A stretch of DNA of 64,000 bases from assembly GCA_903871875.1 (NCBI GenBank), contig CAIQIR010000096.1, positions 70,185 to 134,184 of the forward strand, in the 5' to 3' direction. The notes beneath the pieces were generated by a model. The model worked only from the letters and a program-made list of their open reading frames with translations, did no database searches and had not been told where the DNA came from. This DNA is from an uncultured Schlesneria sp. Its GTDB lineage: Bacteria > Planctomycetota > Planctomycetia > Planctomycetales > Planctomycetaceae. Positions within the stretch are counted from its first letter, which is position 1; each line of letters opens with the position of its first letter. Positions 5,009 through 46,240 of the stretch are shown one piece after another. The translations under genes were made by a program, and so were the position numbers.

Positions 5009-5250
5009 CGGGTGGCCGCGGTTGGCGGCTTCGCCTACCGGGGTGGTTCTTACCACAAGAGGTTCAATCACAATCGACCCATTCGACTGGCTCTCCCGCG
5101 GTTCGGCCTTCCTCCCCGGGTAGCCAAGGTCGCTCCGCAACCTTTTGGGGCCGCAGGCCAGAGAGCCCGAAATCTCGAGCCAAACTCGTTGGCAAACCTC
5201 CTTCGGCTGTCGCCGCCGCGGTAGGCGAAGCCGCCAACCGCGGCCACCCG
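5009..5250. repeat. Palindromic intergenic element, copy A
   Basis: A perfect 32-bp inverted repeat bounds the element: bases 5009-5040 (CGGGTGGCCGCGGTTGGCGG and onward) are the exact reverse complement of 5219-5250. The right-hand part (5122-5250) recurs about 1.57 kb away at 6691-6823 with obvious similarity throughout, including CTCCGCAACCTTTTGGGGCC. The element has no reading frame of its own and ends 106 bp before the next gene. It looks like a non-autonomous, MITE-like mobile element or an extragenic palindrome family. Confidence 0.75.
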
Positions 5251-5274
5251 GCCCGAATTTCTTCGAAGAAATTG

Positions 5275-5335
5275 TTGACAAGTTTTTTTGATTGTGTGGA
5301 CAAGAGTTTGTCGTTGTATGATAAAATGTTGACAA
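5275..5335 (+). promoter_or_regulatory. Promoter with phased GACAA half-sites
   Basis: Upstream of the regulator gene, GACAA occurs at 5277-5281, 5299-5303 and 5331-5335, and as its complement TTGTC at 5308-5312. The direct copies are 22 and 32 bp apart, close to whole helical turns, and 5299-5312 is a small dyad (GACAA-N4-TTGTC). A sigma70-like pair overlaps them: TGGACA (5297-5302) and GATAAA (5320-5325), 17 bp apart. The downstream product has an N-terminal winged helix, so autoregulation is plausible but inferred. Confidence 0.5.
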
Positions 5336-5356: not shown

Positions 5357-6418
5357 ATGGCCGCGAAGAGTTCCGAAATCCAGCAATTCGTCATCGATCA
5401 TGTCGACGAGCACCCGCGCGACATCGTTCGGCTGGCAGTGGAACGCTTTGGGATTACCCGCCAGGCCGTCAATCGGCATATGAAGATCTTGATGGAAGAC
5501 GGCGTGATCGAGGCCGAGGGGCGGACGTCCGAACGCTCCTATCGTCTCGTCCAGCACGAGCACACCTTTCAGCTTCCGCTCGCCGAGAATCAGGCAGAGG
5601 ATCTCGTTTACCGGGAATACATCGCTCCGTTGCTCGACGGACTGAAGAAGAACGTTCAAGACATTTTCTATTATGGGTTTACGGAAATGTTCAACAACGT
5701 GATCGACCACTCGGCCGGAACCATGGCGACCGTGAACGTCACACTGACCGCCAAGAGGTGCTCCGTTTTGATTGTCGATGACGGGATGGGCATTTTCGAG
5801 AAGATCAAAAGCCGGTTCGCCCTGCATGATCATCGGGCAGCAGTCCTCGAGTTGTCCAAAGGGAAGCTGACGACCGACCCCACGCGTCATTCCGGCCAGG
5901 GAATTTTTTTTACGTCACGCATGTTTGACTACTTCTGGCTGCGCGCGAATTCTCTGGTCTATATTCATCAACGGAATCAGGACGACTGGTTGCTCGAGAG
6001 AGATGACGAGGCATTGAGGGGAACCGGTGTCGGGATGGAAATCGCCACCGATTCGCTCACGACGACGAAAGAAGTGTTCGACAACTACACCGACTTGGAA
6101 TCAGATGATTACGCCTTCTCCAAGACCCATGTGCCGTTGTCCCTGGCAAAATACCACGACGAAGAATTGATCTCGCGCTCGCAGGCCAAACGGGTCTTGA
6201 GCCGGTTCGATCGATTTCACGAAGTGCTGCTGGATTTCAAAGGGGTGAATTCCATCGGGCAAGCCTTTGCCGATGAAATCTTTCGGGTGTTCAAACGCAG
6301 CAACCCGGAGGTCCACGTCATCGCCATCAATGCCAATCCCGGCGTGGCCCAAATGATCAGTCGCGCCCAATCCATCGACAGTGCACCATCGTCGCCCGAC
6401 CCCTCCCAGCCCGGGTGA
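5357..6418 (+). CDS. Winged-helix / GHKL ATPase / STAS-like (DUF4325) regulator
   Basis: A 353-residue cytoplasmic protein with three parts. Residues 5-65 form a DNA-binding winged helix ('RFGITRQAVNRHMKIL'). Residues about 85-235 are a GHKL (HATPase_c) domain with N-box E110-MFNN, G1 box DDGMGI (141-146) and G2 box HSGQGIFFTS (178-187). Residues about 270-335 match the STAS-like DUF4325 domain ('VLLDFKGVNSIGQAFADEIF'). Proteins of this build are thought to sense nucleotide or partner state and to regulate genes, and are frequent in accessory regions; no histidine phospho-acceptor domain is present. The start is supported by GGAG 9 bases upstream. The gene stands alone between two copies of a palindromic repeat, which suggests mobility. 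Confidence 0.85.
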   Translation: MAAKSSEIQQFVIDHVDEHPRDIVRLAVERFGITRQAVNRHMKILMEDGVIEAEGRTSERSYRLVQHEHTFQLPLAENQAEDLVYREYIAPLLDGLKKNVQDIFYYGFTEMFNNVIDHSAGTMATVNVTLTAKRCSVLIVDDGMGIFEKIKSRFALHDHRAAVLELSKGKLTTDPTRHSGQGIFFTSRMFDYFWLRANSLVYIHQRNQDDWLLERDDEALRGTGVGMEIATDSLTTTKEVFDNYTDLESDDYAFSKTHVPLSLAKYHDEELISRSQAKRVLSRFDRFHEVLLDFKGVNSIGQAFADEIFRVFKRSNPEVHVIAINANPGVAQMISRAQSIDSAPSSPDPSQPG

Positions 6419-6624: not shown

Positions 6625-6658
6625 GACGTTTATTGCGTTTTATCCCGTTGTTTTCCAC

Positions 6659-6886
6659 CCTTGTTGATGACGGAGACCTCAAAGCAGGGTCGCCAAGGTT
6701 GCTCCGCAACCTTTTGGGGCCGCAGGTCAGAGAGGCTTAAATCTTGAGCCGAACTCGTTTGAAAACCTCCTCCGGCTGTCGCCGCCCCGGTAGGCTCGAA
6801 AGCAGCCAACCGGGGCCACCCGGGAAAACAATTATTCGGGTTGATCTGCTTTTTTGTCGCCCTTGTTGATGACGGAGACCTCAAAG
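6659..6886. repeat. 26-bp direct repeats enclosing palindromic element copy B
   Basis: CCTTGTTGATGACGGAGACC and the six following bases occur identically at 6659-6684 and 6861-6886. The right copy encodes the C-terminal 'FEVSVINKG' of the secreted protein; the left copy encodes the same peptide as an orphan. Between them sits element copy B (6691-6823), related to 5122-5250. The matching left arm of the element family is found separately at 6452-6472. This arrangement fits element insertion accompanied by duplication of the 3' end of the host gene. Confidence 0.7.
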
Positions 6887-7806: not shown

Positions 7807-7929
7807 CCGTTTCGCTCCTTCGCGGCCCAAGTCGAACCAGCCCAGCATTGCAGTCGTCTCGCCTCAGCCATGATATCCGGCCACCCCGCGAATGCCAGAA
7901 ACGTCATCGGGACCAATGCTACTCGTCGC

Positions 7930-8329
7930 AGGATCTATCGAACTGTACGGTCACCGTTGGGCAGTGGAGGCCAATTTAAGAAACCTGAAGCAGACGTTGG
8001 GCATGGATATTCTGCGTACGAAGTCGCTGGACAATATTCTCAAAGAGCTCTCGATGTTCCTACTGGTTTACAATCTGGTCCGACTCGTGATGCCCAAGGC
8101 CTCACAAGAACAGGACGTGCCTCTGGAACGGATCCGTTTCGCAGACGCGCTCCGCTGGCTTTGACATACCAACTGCGACGCAGGCGCCGGTGCGCTGCTC
8201 GTGGTGCGCGCTCGGAAAGGACGTGTCGAACTTCATGTCAAAAAACGCCGACTGAAACAGTTTCCGGTCATGAGACTTCCACGCGATCAGCTTCGTAAAC
8301 GTCTACCGGAAAATGGAGATAAGTCTTAA
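7930..8329 (+). pseudogene. IS4-family transposase, C-terminal remnant
   Basis: The frame begins abruptly at about 7930 with 'IELYGHRWAVEANLRNLKQT', which contains the conserved C-terminal Y-(2)-R-(3)-E-(6)-K signature of IS4-type DDE transposases (here Y-GH-R-WAV-E-ANLRNL-K). It continues to 'RFADALRWL', meets an in-frame TGA (8162-8164), then resumes in the same frame with 'HVKKRRLKQFPVMRLPRDQL', the family's usual basic tail, ending at 8329. The N-terminal two thirds, including the first catalytic aspartates, are missing. No terminal inverted repeats were identified. The remnant marks the left border of the accessory island. Confidence 0.85.
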
Positions 8330-8512: not shown

Positions 8513-8893
8513 GTGAGAATCGTCGGAACGGACGTCGCCATGAGAGTTTACTGCAAGAATTATCACGATCCGAAAACCATCAACGTCAAGTTCTCCGGAC
8601 GGAGGGACTCCGGCAAGTCGGTCTGTCCGCCTTGGGCGAGCAACGGAGAATTACAGCAGATCCTCCTCGATCGTGCTTTGGTTCGAGAAGGTGAAGCCGA
8701 AGACTCCTTTGGTCGGCCGAAACGGCGATGGAACGCAGTCGAAGGCCACGTCTTTGTCGGAGTCTCCTGCAATACTGAAGACGGAGCCTACAATTGCTAT
8801 CCAGAGGTGCCACCCGATGGAGAATGTTATGCCGAGTTAATGCGTCGCCGTCAACGAACGCAATTGGAAGCAATGAACGAGAATGAGGATTGA
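8513..8893 (+). CDS. Unknown 126-residue protein, first gene of a cassette
   Basis: The start is GTG at 8513, supported by GGAGG 8 bases upstream; an ATG at 8540 is the alternative. The protein is soluble and fairly charged, with five cysteines (in 'RVYCKNY', 'SVCPPW', 'SCNTEDG', 'YNCYPEVPPDGECY') that could bind a metal or form a redox pair. No known family is recognised. Its stop codon is one base before the ATG of the ImmA/IrrE-like gene, so the two are almost certainly co-transcribed and translationally coupled. A toxin/antitoxin or effector/sensor relation is conceivable from the context, but nothing in the sequence shows activity. Confidence 0.7.
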   Translation: MRIVGTDVAMRVYCKNYHDPKTINVKFSGRRDSGKSVCPPWASNGELQQILLDRALVREGEAEDSFGRPKRRWNAVEGHVFVGVSCNTEDGAYNCYPEVPPDGECYAELMRRRQRTQLEAMNENED

Positions 8894-8894
8894 G

Positions 8895-10316
8895 ATGTCG
8901 ACGATTCGATTTGAGATAGAGTGGTGCGATCCAATCAGTGTCGATATTCCAGCTGACGCGAGCCTTGGGGAACTGGTGATTTGGGTTGATGACGATTGCG
9001 TTACTCGAAATCTAACGACTGGGACACGAGCTAATCGGGAATCATTCAGAGGGGTGTTCGGTAACCTTTCAGGGGTCGCGGATTGGTGTATTGAGAATTG
9101 GGCGTTCCTCGTGAATGAGTCGATAACGCCGTTTCCGAGATCTGCATTTCCCGACGGCGCTAGTGACCATGCTGTTCCTGGTCTTCGGGATGCCGAATTG
9201 GGATGGATGGCATCTGTCGAAGCGGGAGTTTCTGTCGCTTCGTTGGCCGACTGGCAACATCGGCACACGGTTGGGCATGCGACGTCGGAATTGGCGTTAC
9301 CGTCGTTAGTGGTAGTTCCAGAATCGAACGATCTGATTCTCGCAATCGATTCCCCGGCCGCCAGACTTAATGCCACAACTCACTTCATCAATTCTCGAAA
9401 GCGGCGGCGTGAATACACGATGTATGTTGTTCGAAGTGCGGACTTTCTCGGAGCCGTCAGTGGGTTCATTGACGAAGTGTTGGAGCGGTTAGCCAAGTTT
9501 TCCGAGGCTAGCAAGCTAACTGAATGGATGTGTAAGAATTGGGATGATGCACGCAAGCAGGCTCAAGATCCTGGAGTAATCGCGAGAATCCAATTTGGGA
9601 AGCTGGCATCACAAGAGCTGATGCAGCTGGAACGCGTCAATTCCCATCTCGCGGGTCTTGTTAAGGACACGCTCGCAGATTGCCCGATGATAGGCTCTCA
9701 CGATGAATTAGAACACCTCGCGAATACTATTGTTGAGTTGGGAGAGACGACCAACGACGTGGAATCCGTCGATCCAATCGCATGGAATGGGGTTACATCG
9801 GACGGCCCTGACTACCAGCAGGGCTATCGGTTGGCGCAAGTCGTGCGAGGAAAATTTCAGCTCGGAAATCGACCGATCAAGGAAATGGTCTCTGTGCTCA
9901 ATCGCGGTGGCCTCGCCGTGAAACCAGAGGTTAATTCAACGCTTTTCCGCAGTCTAGCTGTCCCATGTAAGGACGAGACTCGGAGCGTAGTCGTGTCCTC
10001 GATCGACGTGCGTGCAAGCACGCCAAATGGACATCGATTCGCGTTGGCGGCGACCCTCGGCCGTGCATTGTGGGATCAGGCGACCGAATCTCCAAATCTT
10101 CATGCGTTGGCACACGGAGATTTTGCTCGCATAAGCCGTTCTCGACGGGCTAATGCTTTCGCTGCCGAACTTTTGCTCCCTAGAGAGGTGTTTCTACTTC
10201 GCCTTGGCGGCACTGCGACTTCTTGGCAGATTCGAGAGCTTGCAGAAGAGTATGGGATTGCGAATTCAGCGGCAACCTGGCACGCGCAGAATCAGGGCGT
10301 GAAGTTGATGGCGTGA
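8895..10316 (+). CDS. ImmA/IrrE-like protein lacking metal ligands
   Basis: The 473-residue protein starts at 8895 (GAGG 6 bases upstream), one base after the preceding stop. Its N-terminal ~200 residues are unfamiliar. The C-terminal ~170 residues follow the ImmA/IrrE (DUF955) peptidase layout: helical 'YQQGYRLAQVVRGKF', then 'RFALAATLGR' where active enzymes have an HExxH helix, then 'RRANAFAAELLLP', the strongly conserved ANxFAAxLLxP block. Both zinc histidines are replaced (A and R at the HExxH positions, 381-390) and the third ligand before the AN motif is R/S. It is therefore probably a pseudo-peptidase acting in sensing or binding. Active relatives cleave repressors of mobile elements or stress regulons. 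Confidence 0.7.
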   Translation: MSTIRFEIEWCDPISVDIPADASLGELVIWVDDDCVTRNLTTGTRANRESFRGVFGNLSGVADWCIENWAFLVNESITPFPRSAFPDGASDHAVPGLRDAELGWMASVEAGVSVASLADWQHRHTVGHATSELALPSLVVVPESNDLILAIDSPAARLNATTHFINSRKRRREYTMYVVRSADFLGAVSGFIDEVLERLAKFSEASKLTEWMCKNWDDARKQAQDPGVIARIQFGKLASQELMQLERVNSHLAGLVKDTLADCPMIGSHDELEHLANTIVELGETTNDVESVDPIAWNGVTSDGPDYQQGYRLAQVVRGKFQLGNRPIKEMVSVLNRGGLAVKPEVNSTLFRSLAVPCKDETRSVVVSSIDVRASTPNGHRFALAATLGRALWDQATESPNLHALAHGDFARISRSRRANAFAAELLLPREVFLLRLGGTATSWQIRELAEEYGIANSAATWHAQNQGVKLMA

Positions 10317-10693
10317 TGTTCAAAAGGTCGCACAGTTGACTACGTCGAAGACACCCCCGGTGTCCACATGCCACCGACTTCTATTTGTTCCGGAACCAGC
10401 GTCTCTCTTCGCGGCCGTGTGGCGACCGCCTCACTGCCGCGATTGAGCGAAAGCTGGTCCCACGTGACGCCACCCCCCAGAAAATCGCGGTAGCTTGCTC
10501 AATTCAACCTGCCGGCTGTCGGAAGCTGATGGCCCGCACGCTTCGCCAGAATTCACCGCGCCGGAAATGCTTCGTAGCTGCTGCGATCAACCCGGCGGGA
10601 CTTAGGTCTCAATGTCCCCTTTTTGACTCGAATGGTCATGCCGTTTCGGCGACTTCTTGTCATGCGGGTTTCGTTACAAATCAAATCGAAGAG
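10317..10693. other. Intergenic region between convergent island genes
   Basis: No gene is supported. A segment near 10436-10455 (CGATTGAGCGAAAGCTGG) resembles CGATCGAGTGAAAGCCGG near 13741-13760, which may be a trace of shared repeat ancestry across the island. No hairpin terminator with a T-run was seen. Confidence 0.4.
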
Positions 10694-11707
10694 TCACTCG
10701 AAAGCGGGAAACATCCGCTCAAGAGTGCCATCTTCCTTCGTTCGTGCCACCTTCCTCAGCTGCCAGATTAAATCTTCCGACAAGTTCCTGTTCCACTCTC
10801 CCGATTGTCCCGGGCCAAAGGCTACTTCTTCTCCAAAATGGTTGTGTGAAACCGGCTGGAAGGTGAACTGAAGACCATCAAAGGTCTTCGAAATGTAATC
10901 ATTATGTTGTTCGACGTTTCCTCGATTTCTTACAGTCGCCCGCAGCGTCACATGGAGTGGCGAAGTTTGCCCGGGAAGCAATTGTTCTGGCGGTGAGCGT
11001 AAATACGCCTCTTCCAAGCTCGGAGCGGGTTGCTGATATCGCCAATAGACCCGCTCGCTATTCGGTATAAATCGAGCTCCCCATGATTCGGCAGAGCGTT
11101 TCGAGGTGTTCTTGACCCAGATAGTCAACAATGCCTCCAGCTCAGAATGTCGCTGCATCTCCTCATCGATTGCATTCAACATTGGGGCCTCAATAGTGCA
11201 GTCGATACTCACAACTTCAAGAATAACGCTCGTCAGGCGGCTTCGAAGCAGATCAAGATGGAAATGCGGCGCTGGTTCAGACTTCCCATAAAGCCGCCAA
11301 TAATAAACGGGTGGCGTTGTCTTGGCTTGGTGCGGTGCAGTCTGGCTGTCTCCAATCTCGACTATGAAAATCGACTCGCCCGCGTTGCCCGAAATCGGAA
11401 TCTCGTACACCTTGAAATCCTGAAGCGAGTACGAAACCGAGTTCTGAACTTTTGTTACCAACCAATCCATGGTCGGCTGTCTGCCAATCTTCTTGATGCA
11501 CGGTTCGATCTGACGAGTCTTGTCCGCAATTCCGAACACGAGGTTGCCGCCGCCGGTATTAGCAAATGCGGAAACCTGTTTGCCGAGTTCGGCGTCAATA
11601 TCCACGTCCGTGAGTTTCTTGGCAGATTTGAATTCCCATTTGTCATCTTCGGCAGGTGGCAGGACCAACAATAGATCGTCTGTCGTCTTAATTTGGGCCA
11701 AATCCAT
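10694..11707 (-). CDS. Schlafen-type AlbA_2 domain protein
   Basis: A 337-residue protein whose first ~150 residues form a Schlafen AlbA_2 (divergent AAA-4) domain: 'KWEFKSAKK' (24-31) followed by 'QVSAFANTGGGNLVFGI' (44-60), the conserved E-x-K and ANTxGG motifs. The region to about 150 ends with an 'IVEIGDS...YYWRLYGKSEP' block usual for the domain. The rest is a long beta-rich C-terminal part (from about 165) with no known family. AlbA_2 proteins occur as predicted transcriptional regulators and in phage-defence and RNase contexts; catalytic residues for RNA cleavage cannot be assigned. The gene lies alone, with a shared ~100-bp module upstream (11771-11878) also found before the HEPN-like gene. 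Confidence 0.85.
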   Translation of the reverse strand: MDLAQIKTTDDLLLVLPPAEDDKWEFKSAKKLTDVDIDAELGKQVSAFANTGGGNLVFGIADKTRQIEPCIKKIGRQPTMDWLVTKVQNSVSYSLQDFKVYEIPISGNAGESIFIVEIGDSQTAPHQAKTTPPVYYWRLYGKSEPAPHFHLDLLRSRLTSVILEVVSIDCTIEAPMLNAIDEEMQRHSELEALLTIWVKNTSKRSAESWGARFIPNSERVYWRYQQPAPSLEEAYLRSPPEQLLPGQTSPLHVTLRATVRNRGNVEQHNDYISKTFDGLQFTFQPVSHNHFGEEVAFGPGQSGEWNRNLSEDLIWQLRKVARTKEDGTLERMFPAFE

Positions 11708-11770
11708 GGTGTCTCAGGGGGCCTGAATTGACTTTTGGAGGTTCGCGGAAACAAAAAAGGGATGAGGCTG

Positions 11771-11878
11771 CTCTGTAGAAAAGGCCTTCCTTCGATTTTG
11801 ATAAGATGATACCAGTCGGCGATGTGCAAGACATGAGACTCACCGCGATAAGTGCTTCAAACGGCGTATGGACTCGAA
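11771..11878 (-). promoter_or_regulatory. Shared upstream module, copy 1
   Basis: The sequence 64-171 bases upstream of the Schlafen-type gene matches 13471-13573 upstream of the HEPN-like gene. Conserved blocks in plus-strand order are CTCTG(T/C)AGAAAA, TACCAG, CAA(G/A)ACAT, TCACCGCGA and CTTC(A/G)A. On the minus strand it contains TGGTATCAT, which resembles an extended -10 element. A short plus-strand frame from ATG 11833 (46 codons) runs through it, so a decayed divergent gene is the alternative reading. Confidence 0.5.
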
Positions 11879-12113
11879 TCCAACGCCAGCAAGTCGGCCA
11901 ACTCTTACCAGCCGAGACCGTGATGAGCGTGTTCAAAAGGCGGCGACACGACTTAAATGTCACGACGCACTGATCACCGCCGACGTCGAGGCCTGATGTT
12001 GATGGCTATCACTGTGATGATTCTGTAAATGGCGCCGCGTTTTCCACAAAGCGTACCGTCACCTTTTGTTGACCCATATGCATTGGCTGAGGCGGGGCAA
12101 CGCTTCTGCCTTA
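11879..12113. other. Remainder of gap between Schlafen-type and HEPN-like genes
   Basis: A short plus-strand frame could end with 'MSVFKRRRHDLNVTTH' near 11970; it has no recognised family and no ribosome-binding site. Nothing else is supported. Confidence 0.35.
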
Positions 12114-13442
12114 TCAGTGCTTCAACCTGAGTTTGTTCAGAATCTTCGCGAGAAAAATTTCGGCCAATACAAGTAATTGGAGATGGAGTTGTTGAAAATG
12201 GTGTGCATCGGTTGGATGTTCAGCGAGTCCCAGCCAACGGAACTTCGCCGCCAACTCGGTCCACGATTTCTGGATGTCCTTGTCTTTTCCGTGATCCGCG
12301 TCGTGCCGGGACCATTTGTTCCGTAGATGCTTTATGCACCAAATCAGGTCACAATCGGCTTTGCTCAATGGACCGCCATGCTCTTCGAGGAACCGGAGAT
12401 TGTCTCTACCGGCACCTTCGTAAAAAATGAAGTACAGACAATCGACAACGTCGGCGAATCGCCACCGGTCAGTCGGAGAGAGCCATGGTAGGTCATTAAA
12501 AGCAATCATCAGTCGCGTTGTCGGCTTGAAAATCTCCACCCCGGACTCCGAGGTTTTTCCTGCCTCGTTGCAAAGGGTTACCAATTCTAAAACCCGGCGT
12601 CCGCGCTGCGCGGTTTGAGCGGTAGTAGATGCAATTGTCATCGATTCGACGTCAAACTCGCCCACGATCGAAGGCGAGCCCAACAGTTCGTTTTGCTGGT
12701 CGAAGGGCGCGTCCAGTATCCTCGCATCGCCTGGTTCGTCATTATCGTCCGGTACTGCGATGAAATTGCTTACGGCATCCGCTATGCCGAGTAGTTGTTG
12801 CTCCGCAAGGTTCAGGCTTCCCCTTAACCGGGCTGCGATATCCGGCGAAGGATCGGCGGCGAGACGTTCTGTCGTAACTCTCACAAATTCGCCATAGGCG
12901 TTTGGCAACCCAAAAAGACGCGAAGATAGCTGTTCACGCTGCGAAAAAAGGCCGATATCCACCATTCGGTTCGCCAGCCCGATTGAGGTCACGTTCCACG
13001 CTAATTGGGATCGTGAAAACTGAGCGACGTCACACGACACGGAATTCAGTGCAAGAGCTTGTGCCGATAGTCTGTCAAACGCAGTGGATTGCAGTTGCAA
13101 CTGATCATGAATCGCGCGATAGGGTTCGGTGATGCGCTCGTTGACTGCTCGCAATTGATTGAGCTGGTTCGAAATGTCGTCTGAGAATCGCGGGTCAATG
13201 GCGAGCTTAGCGATCAGTAGGTGCTCCCGCTGCATGGCGGCCGCCGCTTGGGACAGGACGGTAAGTTGTGCTCGTGGGCTTACCGACTCTGCAATTTTTG
13301 TGATGGTCGAGGTTGGGGACGGAAATTGAATTGACTTAAGAAAATCGGACATCGCCGTGTAGGGGCTCAGGGTTGTTTGAATACGCGCGAAGTTTTCCGT
13401 CACTTCTTCCACCGCTCGATTGAGTCCTTCCAAGTTTTCCAT
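12114..13442 (-). CDS. Large helical protein with HEPN-like C-terminus
   Basis: The 442-residue product is helical almost throughout, with Gln/Leu-rich coiled-coil-like segments in the first 190 residues and an acidic linker near 230-260 ('VPDDNDEPGDARILDAPFD'). The C-terminal ~110 residues contain 'LRNKWSRHD' at 373-381. R374-N-K-W-S-R-H380 fits the R-x(4-6)-H signature of HEPN ribonucleases and lies in a helix after 'CDLIWCIKH', as in many abortive-infection HEPN proteins. No nucleotidyltransferase partner is adjacent. The assignment rests on this motif and helical context only, so RNase activity is inference. The same ~100-bp module as before the Schlafen-type gene lies 29 bases upstream of the start. 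Confidence 0.6.
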   Translation of the reverse strand: MENLEGLNRAVEEVTENFARIQTTLSPYTAMSDFLKSIQFPSPTSTITKIAESVSPRAQLTVLSQAAAAMQREHLLIAKLAIDPRFSDDISNQLNQLRAVNERITEPYRAIHDQLQLQSTAFDRLSAQALALNSVSCDVAQFSRSQLAWNVTSIGLANRMVDIGLFSQREQLSSRLFGLPNAYGEFVRVTTERLAADPSPDIAARLRGSLNLAEQQLLGIADAVSNFIAVPDDNDEPGDARILDAPFDQQNELLGSPSIVGEFDVESMTIASTTAQTAQRGRRVLELVTLCNEAGKTSESGVEIFKPTTRLMIAFNDLPWLSPTDRWRFADVVDCLYFIFYEGAGRDNLRFLEEHGGPLSKADCDLIWCIKHLRNKWSRHDADHGKDKDIQKSWTELAAKFRWLGLAEHPTDAHHFQQLHLQLLVLAEIFLAKILNKLRLKH

Positions 13443-13470
13443 GGTCGCTCGCTCTACGGGGTGATTGGTG

Positions 13471-13573
13471 CTCTGCAGAAAATGTCGAGATTTTTAAAAC
13501 ATGGTACCAGGCAGGGGTGAGCAAAACATCAAAATCACCGCGAAAGTTACTTCGAGTGGCACACGAACCTGCG
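13471..13573 (-). promoter_or_regulatory. Shared upstream module, copy 2
   Basis: This is the partner of 11771-11878. It holds CTCTGCAGAAAA (13471-13482), GGTACCAG (13503-13510), AAAACATC (13523-13530) and TCACCGCGAAAG (13535-13546) in the same order and similar spacing. On the minus strand TGGTACCAT resembles an extended -10, placing a transcript start shortly before the HEPN-like gene. Confidence 0.5.
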
Positions 13574-13807
13574 AGTGAGGCGCTTTTGGCGTAGTTCCAC
13601 TCATAGAGTCCGAAGAAGTTCACGCGGACGCTATTGTTCGCGTGCGTCGTGCGGAAGCCGTGATTGAAGCTCGACGATTGTGGCGTGGTGGAGTTATTGT
13701 ACGACACTCCCCACTGTGATACGTGATCGCGTTAAGGCCACGATCGAGTGAAAGCCGGTGCCGCAGGAAACTGCGGGCATGCTGCTCAAAACATTCCGAA
13801 CAGATAT
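13574..13807. other. Intergenic DNA with possible gene fragment
   Basis: On the minus strand about 13588-13707 encodes a protein-like piece ('RVNFFGLYEWNYAKS') without start, stop context or recognised family. It is probably a relic. Confidence 0.3.
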
Positions 13808-13931
13808 TGGGGCCGATCCAGGGGCGGCAATCTTGCGTGATCAATGTCTCTGAACGTGCCGCCGCTGTTGCTCGTTCCTGCAGCTGATGACCGCGCGTCG
13901 CCAAGGGGCGGTTCCGGTGCTAAAATGCGGG
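13808..13931 (+). repeat. Dispersed ~120-bp repeat, copy 1, with promoter-like end
   Basis: The stretch matches 15055-15168 almost throughout, apart from a ~10-base gap near the start. Shared blocks include TGGGGCCGATCC, GTGA-CAATG, CGCCGCTGT-GCTCGTTCCTG and GCGCGTCGCCAA. Both copies end in a -10-like hexamer (TAAAAT 13921-13926 here) followed by GCGGG, and both sit directly upstream of a plus-strand gene. Confidence 0.7.
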
Positions 13932-14477: not shown

Positions 14478-15054
14478 GTCGCGTGCATGTTGGCAAGGAC
14501 CGGTCGGCTCGGGAAGCCGGCTTCGTTAATGACGCCGGTCATTCAATCAGGAAAAAAGGGGATTTGAAACACGAAGGCTTCACGGCCTCCACTACACTGC
14601 GTTTACTTCGTTTAGGCAACATACAAGGGACGGAGGGCACAGAGAGAAAACGGAGAAAACCATCACGGGACAGATCAGCAGCCGAGCCAGTTCCTGGCGT
14701 CACCTCCTCTGATCTCCGTGTCCTCCGTCGCTCTGTGTTTCCAACTCCGTATTCCCGTGCTCATTTGCGTCGGCGAGACTGCACGGACCGGTGCATCGGA
14801 AGAAGAAATCCTCGACGAGCTGGTCGGTCCTTCAGACCTTTGACTGCGTGGGGGGATTGATTCCAGGGCCTGCGCCGAAGACGGCTGCGACCCTGGCTGG
14901 TGGGCTGGTTGGTCCTTTGACCGGAGGATCGGACGAAGAAATCCTTGTGAGGATTGTTCGTGGGACTGGTGTGTGCTGTCGTGAATCTGGCCGGTTCCGT
15001 CGTGGGCCGTTCCGCCTCTCTTTGGGGACTGTCCTCCGCTCTTCGAGCAGGTCC
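14478..15054. other. Intergenic region with inverted and direct short repeats
   Basis: No gene is supported. GACGGAGGGCACAGAGAG (from 14629) and GTCCTCCGTCGCTCTGTG (to about 14747) form an imperfect inverted pair of the 'cacagag/cggagg' kind often scattered between planctomycete genes. ATCGGAAGAAGAAATCCTCG (14795-14814) recurs as ATCGGACGAAGAAATCCTTG (14928-14947), 133 bp later. Confidence 0.5.
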
Positions 15055-15168
15055 TGGGGCCGATCCTGGCGTGAGCAATGCCGCTGAACGCGTCGCCGCT
15101 GTGGCTCGTTCCTGCAATCGGGGACGCGCGCGTCGCCAACGGGTGATCCCTGCGCTACAATGCGGGTC
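15055..15168 (+). repeat. Dispersed ~120-bp repeat, copy 2, with promoter-like end
   Basis: This is the counterpart of 13808-13931. It ends in TACAAT (15156-15161) followed by GCGGG, 41 bases before the HAD-phosphatase start codon. See copy 1 for the shared blocks. Confidence 0.7.
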
Positions 15169-45415: not shown

Positions 45416-46240
45416 ATGACGCGTTCTGCTGTGACTGTCAGTCTGGTGGCCGAATCCAAGGGGGGGCCATTTGTGTTCTGGGACGATCTGCCCGCTGCTT
45501 GCCGTCAGGCCCAGGAATTGGGATTTGATGCCATCGAACTGTTCGCTCCCGGGCCGGACGCGGTGTCGGCCGCTGAATTGACTTCGCTGCTGAAGTCGCA
45601 TGGACTGCGCCTGGCCGCGGTCGGGACAGGCGCGGGTTGGGTGAAGCACAAGTTGACACTCACCAGTCCCGATGCCGCCGTCCGCGGAAAGGCCGCGGAT
45701 TTTATTCGGTCGATGATCGATTTTGGCGGCCCGCATGGCGCCCCGGCGATCATTGGTTCCATGCAGGGGCGATGGGGTGATGGCGTCTCGAAAGATCAGG
45801 CGATCTGCTGGCTTCGCGACGCATTGAATGAGCTGGGCGAACATGCTCGTCAATTTCAGGTGCCGTTGATTTACGAGCCACTGAATCGTTACGAGACCAA
45901 TCTGGTGAATACCGTCGCGGCCGGCGTGGAATTGATGACGTCTTTACGGACGGACAACGCTCGGTTGCTGGCCGATCTGTTTCATATGAATATCGAAGAG
46001 GTGGATCTGGCGGCGGCCTTGAAGGCCGGAGGGAAGTGGATTGGTCATATTCACTTCGTCGATTCGAATCGACGACCGGCGGGTTGCGGCCATCTGAACT
46101 ACGCGCCGCTGATTGCGGCACTTCAGCAGATCGGCTATTCCGGCTATTTGTCGGCGGAAGCGTTGGCGTGGCCCGATCCGCTCGCCGCGGCGCAGCAAAC
46201 GATTCGCGAGTATCGACGCCTGACGGGGGCGGTCGCGTAA
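45416..46240 (+). CDS. Sugar phosphate isomerase/epimerase, hydroxypyruvate-isomerase-like
   Basis: A 274-residue xylose-isomerase-like TIM barrel. Conserved metal ligands are visible in 'VPLIYEPLNRYETNLVNTV' (Glu), 'RLLADLFHMNIEEVDL' (Asp/His), 'WIGHIHFVDSNRRPAGCGHL' (His, Asp) and 'GYLSAEALAWPDP' (Glu), the layout of hydroxypyruvate isomerase and related ketose epimerases. It interconverts a hydroxy-keto acid or free ketose with bound divalent metal in the cytoplasm. It follows the cysteine hydrolase and precedes UbiA on the same strand. The substrate is uncertain; planctomycetes have many paralogues. Confidence 0.85.
   Translation: MTRSAVTVSLVAESKGGPFVFWDDLPAACRQAQELGFDAIELFAPGPDAVSAAELTSLLKSHGLRLAAVGTGAGWVKHKLTLTSPDAAVRGKAADFIRSMIDFGGPHGAPAIIGSMQGRWGDGVSKDQAICWLRDALNELGEHARQFQVPLIYEPLNRYETNLVNTVAAGVELMTSLRTDNARLLADLFHMNIEEVDLAAALKAGGKWIGHIHFVDSNRRPAGCGHLNYAPLIAALQQIGYSGYLSAEALAWPDPLAAAQQTIREYRRLTGAVA

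Follow-up and report, generated by a model that had tools for sequence, protein, structure and literature searches.

The module shared by two unrelated accessory genes in a Schlesneria genome is very probably the end of a decayed IS5-type insertion sequence

Insertion sequences (IS) of the IS5 family have, like the element described here, a single DDE transposase, a length of about 970–1010 bp and short terminal inverted repeats. Our element differs from the family as modelled (NF033579, PF01609) in that its NF033579 scores lie just under the curated cut-off and in that its copies in the window are decayed. MITE-like elements and other internally deleted IS derivatives keep both ends and have lost the middle of the transposase, which is also the case for one relic of about 300 bp at this locus. 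That relic differs from such derivatives in being a single, point-mutated copy with no sign of mobilisation as a unit. It is well known that IS can carry promoters and that their ends can lie within 100 bp of genes (PMC9208149). The promoter ends of IS903 and IS981 precede a gene by less than 100 bp (PMC9208149), as do the ends at our locus; the latter differ in that no promoter was recognised in them.

We analysed a stretch of 64,000 nucleotides from an uncultured Schlesneria sp. (the window), where an earlier note had described the same module of about 100 bp ahead of two otherwise unrelated minus-strand genes. A repeat finder aligned 11771–11878 with 13471–13573 around an ungapped core of 72 bp (11794–11865 and 13489–13560) with 72% identity. 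Gapped local alignment of the two copies over ~140 bp gave a score of 249, compared to a mean of 83 (sd 14, maximum 136) for 2000 dinucleotide-shuffled pairs, so that the repeat is real. The orientation of the copies, the blocks that they share and the distances to the starts of the Schlafen gene (11707) and of a gene for a 442-aa protein (13442) were all as the earlier note had described. Searching the genome with each copy, as that note had proposed, returned one further strong match at C40:14692–14798 (E 4e-15 and 6e-19), near the start of a neighbouring gene on that contig. A four-copy profile of the module, which combined the three copies of this genome with one from a congener (G012), recovered those three places, all of them IS ends, and no further convincing copies in this genome. 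Copy 2 also matched weakly near 46200 (score 168); this alignment was heavily gapped, lay outside the IS homology detected by nhmmer and was set aside.

On contig C40 the module forms one terminus of an element of 969 bp. The inverted repeats of this element are 14 bp long and have one mismatch (TGCTATGTAGAAAA at one end and inverted TGCTCTGTAGAAAA at the other). The transposase between the repeats belongs to DDE_Tnp_1 of the IS4/IS5 superfamily (PF01609, E 1.1e-18, above the gathering score). Four relatives in other Planctomycetota (L053–L056) have open transposase frames and terminal inverted repeats of 16–32 bp, and their terminal repeat is GGCTCTGTAGAAAAC with one or two changes at most. 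The motifs DST, DAGYD and ETVMSMIKR were invariant in the transposases compared. For the C40 copy and all four relatives the closest NCBIfam model was NF033579 (transpos_IS5_2), with 132 bits for C40 and 123–131 bits for the relatives against a curated cut-off of 140. The C40 transposase (L012:4355–5245) has an in-frame stop at codon 39 from the aligned ATG, where the relatives read on; because of this stop, even the best-preserved copy may be inactive.

The C40 element matched the window at 13469–13800, 11768–11876, 11871–12067 and 10442–10614, with E values from 2.5e-40 to 5e-12. The two aligned segments stand as a repeat but had been drawn too short, since homology to the parent element covers 11768–12067 and 13469–13800, and the count of two copies in the window gives way to a third relic of the same IS type (relic C). 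Relic C, the Schlafen gene, relic B, the 442-aa gene and relic A follow each other in this order, and the transposase reads on the plus strand in all three relics (Table 1). In relic B, positions 42–150 of the IS query, which cover the left terminal inverted repeat, the leader and the first codons of the transposase, are joined to positions 824–1026 (C-terminus of the transposase and right terminal inverted repeat), and the outer arm AAAAAAGGGATGAGGC precedes the left repeat. Relic A has 70% identity to the C40 element over 341 columns (blastn) and the other end of the element is absent. Relic C is situated past the far end of the Schlafen gene.

Table 1. Positions of the IS relics and of the two neighbouring genes in the window
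Feature	Position	Strand	Evidence
Relic A, same IS type: terminal inverted repeat with leader and 5' region of transposase	13469..13800	+	nhmmer E 2.5e-40
Relic A, decayed transposase start VSKTSKSPRKLLRVAHEP..., several in-frame stops	13517..13801	+	tblastn 13634-13711
Relic B: internally deleted IS5-type element	11768..12067	+	nhmmer/blastn with C40 element, E 3.9e-15 and 2.6e-21
Relic B, left terminal inverted repeat TGCTCTGTAGAAAAG, equal to block CTCTGyAGAAAA	11769..11783	+	alignments
Relic B, decayed transposase start MCKT*DSPR*VLQTAYGLE, two stops	11822..11876	+	
Relic B, right terminal inverted repeat GTTTTCCACAAAGC, followed by outer arm	12039..12052	+	
Relic C: internal transposase fragment, query 306-475	10442..10614	+	nhmmer E 5.2e-12
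Schlafen AlbA_2-domain protein, 337 aa, outside element	10694..11707	-	Pfam PF04326 E 4.4e-16
442-aa orphan protein, outside element	12114..13442	-	

Each of the shared blocks has a place in the element. CTCTGyAGAAAA is the IS terminal inverted repeat and TACCAG is within the leader, between the terminal repeat and the start codon. The block TCACCGCGA corresponds to the codons for Ser-Pro-Arg at the N-terminus of the transposase; we read it as coding because the transposases of L053–L056 begin with MxxTSKSPK/R at the aligned site. The short divergent frame through copy 1, which had been suggested in passing to be a relic gene, carries stops and is most likely a dead transposase. The order and spacing of the blocks would thus be conserved as homologous IS sequence and not as binding sites.

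Together, these data support the idea, to which we give a probability of about 96%, that the module would be that end of an IS5-type insertion sequence at which the transposase starts, several copies of which were inserted and then decayed. An element of about 970 bp would have inserted several times in the interval bounded by genes for a ceramidase and a HAD phosphatase, the inserted copies would have decayed through deletion and point mutation, and the resulting relics would now be interleaved with two minus-strand accessory genes. The data show the IS homology with its inverted repeats and stops, the coding origin of the blocks, a near-complete element on C40 and related elements elsewhere in the Planctomycetota; how many insertions took place and the inertness of the relics are our inferences. 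The earlier suggestion of two insertions of modular cassettes holds in so far as a separate IS insertion is the best reading of each copy; we found no evidence that the IS carried the two genes. Our reservations about the IS reading are that no target-site duplication was made out, that relic A is one-ended and that all three ends are near start codons. The stretch is an ordinary IS graveyard, a variable locus with repeated IS insertion. This removes a false lead, in that blocks ahead of unrelated genes are the ends of mobile elements, partly coding sequence, and not regulation, and it singles the stretch out as one in which, in this planctomycete genus, IS have inserted repeatedly and genes have turned over.

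No clear target-site duplication was seen beside the repeats, and the boundary of the element is blurred by the outer arms. Arms resembling AAAAAGGGGTCAG(R)NC occur just outside the terminal repeats in the window (11751–11768 and 12053–12071) and in L012, L045, L053, L056 and L074. They represent an inverted repeat that is longer (about 31 bp) or else a palindrome preferred as a target; AAAAAGGGGTCAG... may be part of either the element or its target.

The placement of the IS ends bears on whether they were captured as outward promoters, driving the Schlafen gene, the 442-aa gene and the neighbour on C40, which would give them similar expression through common descent. In this genome all three ends are 28–63 bp (within 75 bp) ahead of an outward-facing start codon, where the chance of such placement is about 0.13 each for a random intergenic point and random direction in this window. 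The sequence TGGTAyCAT in the two window copies looks like an extended -10, and IS ends acting as promoters, including that of IS903 of the IS5 family, are documented (PMC9208149). Against this, a consensus scan for promoters of the sigma-70 type found none in 11600–13900, with 1.3 expected by chance. Reverse-complemented, TGGTAyCAT is part of the IS leader, and it recurs as TGGTATCAT in two relics of congener G012 that have no close outward gene start (beside L045 no nearby gene is directed outward, and for L073 the first such start comes at a distance of about 336 bp). In the C40 copy TGTTATCAT replaces TGGTATCAT. In L074 the terminal repeat, and in L053, L054 and L056 the end on the promoter side, points at the 3' end of a neighbouring gene. 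We consider promoter capture unlikely, and it is possible that the placement near gene starts reflects some bias or co-option. The stronger proposal, that remnants of the same IS were kept as parallel outward promoters for new genes, at least one of them defence-like, is more doubtful still. If true, it would mean that repeated insertion of one IS wired unrelated accessory genes to similar expression. The earlier proposal of common control of two effectors is not supported: the module is an IS end, TGGTAyCAT is inherited with it, no sigma-70-like promoter was found, and copies in other genomes do not precede genes, an outcome that the earlier note itself had named as refuting its reading.

As to the two genes themselves, the Schlafen-type assignment was borne out (SLFN_AlbA_2, E 4e-16). 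The 442-aa protein had been called HEPN-like. We could not confirm this, as it matched no Pfam, PADLOC or NCBIfam family and its sole HEPN-like trait is an R-x5-H-like string, RNKWSRH; a single-sequence structure model had a mean pLDDT of 42 and was unusable. No relatives of this protein were found in 59 relatives, 392 genomes of the phylum, plasmids or viral contigs. Relics lie on either side of both genes, neither of which was detected in 14 congeneric genomes, and the content between the ceramidase and HAD genes differs in congener G007, where about 10 kb with other genes separates the two. This pattern would fit delivery of the two genes as cargo of a compound or passenger-gene element, with the module as the cassette boundary. 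However, the relics share one orientation, and every one of them is a piece of a complete transposase element. Relic B, which alone has both ends, contains neither gene, no other IS copy examined carries either of them, and the best relative of the Schlafen protein in other genomes is distant (31% identity). We therefore regard IS cargo as very improbable.

Least credible of all is a shared transcription-factor site or leader RNA controlling both genes, for which the ordered, similarly spaced blocks ahead of two genes would speak: the blocks are an IS terminal repeat and transposase codons, the three copies in this genome are all IS ends, the module matched no Rfam family, and the covariation check that had been suggested found compensatory change in 0 of 9 pairs of a consensus fold of four copies. 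Homology to the IS refutes a regulatory or RNA element as the origin of the similarity.

Several other features were seen nearby. A second repeat (13797–13931 and 15044–15166) is 78% identical over about 115 bp, precedes a GNAT acetyltransferase gene and the HAD phosphatase gene, and ends near GCTA(A/C)AATGCGGG. No other copies of it were found in the genome except a 30-bp partial match on contig C29. The region 7892–8164 encodes a C-terminal fragment of another DDE_Tnp_1 transposase (E 3e-6) and is a different IS relic. The region 8883–10316 encodes a protein of 477 aa that has a peptidase M78 (IrrE-like) domain and weakly matches RmrA models of PADLOC. Short frames at about 5068–5300 and 6630–6790 have similar translations (LRPQKVAE-like strings) and form another repeated segment around a HATPase/DUF4325 gene at 5357–6418.
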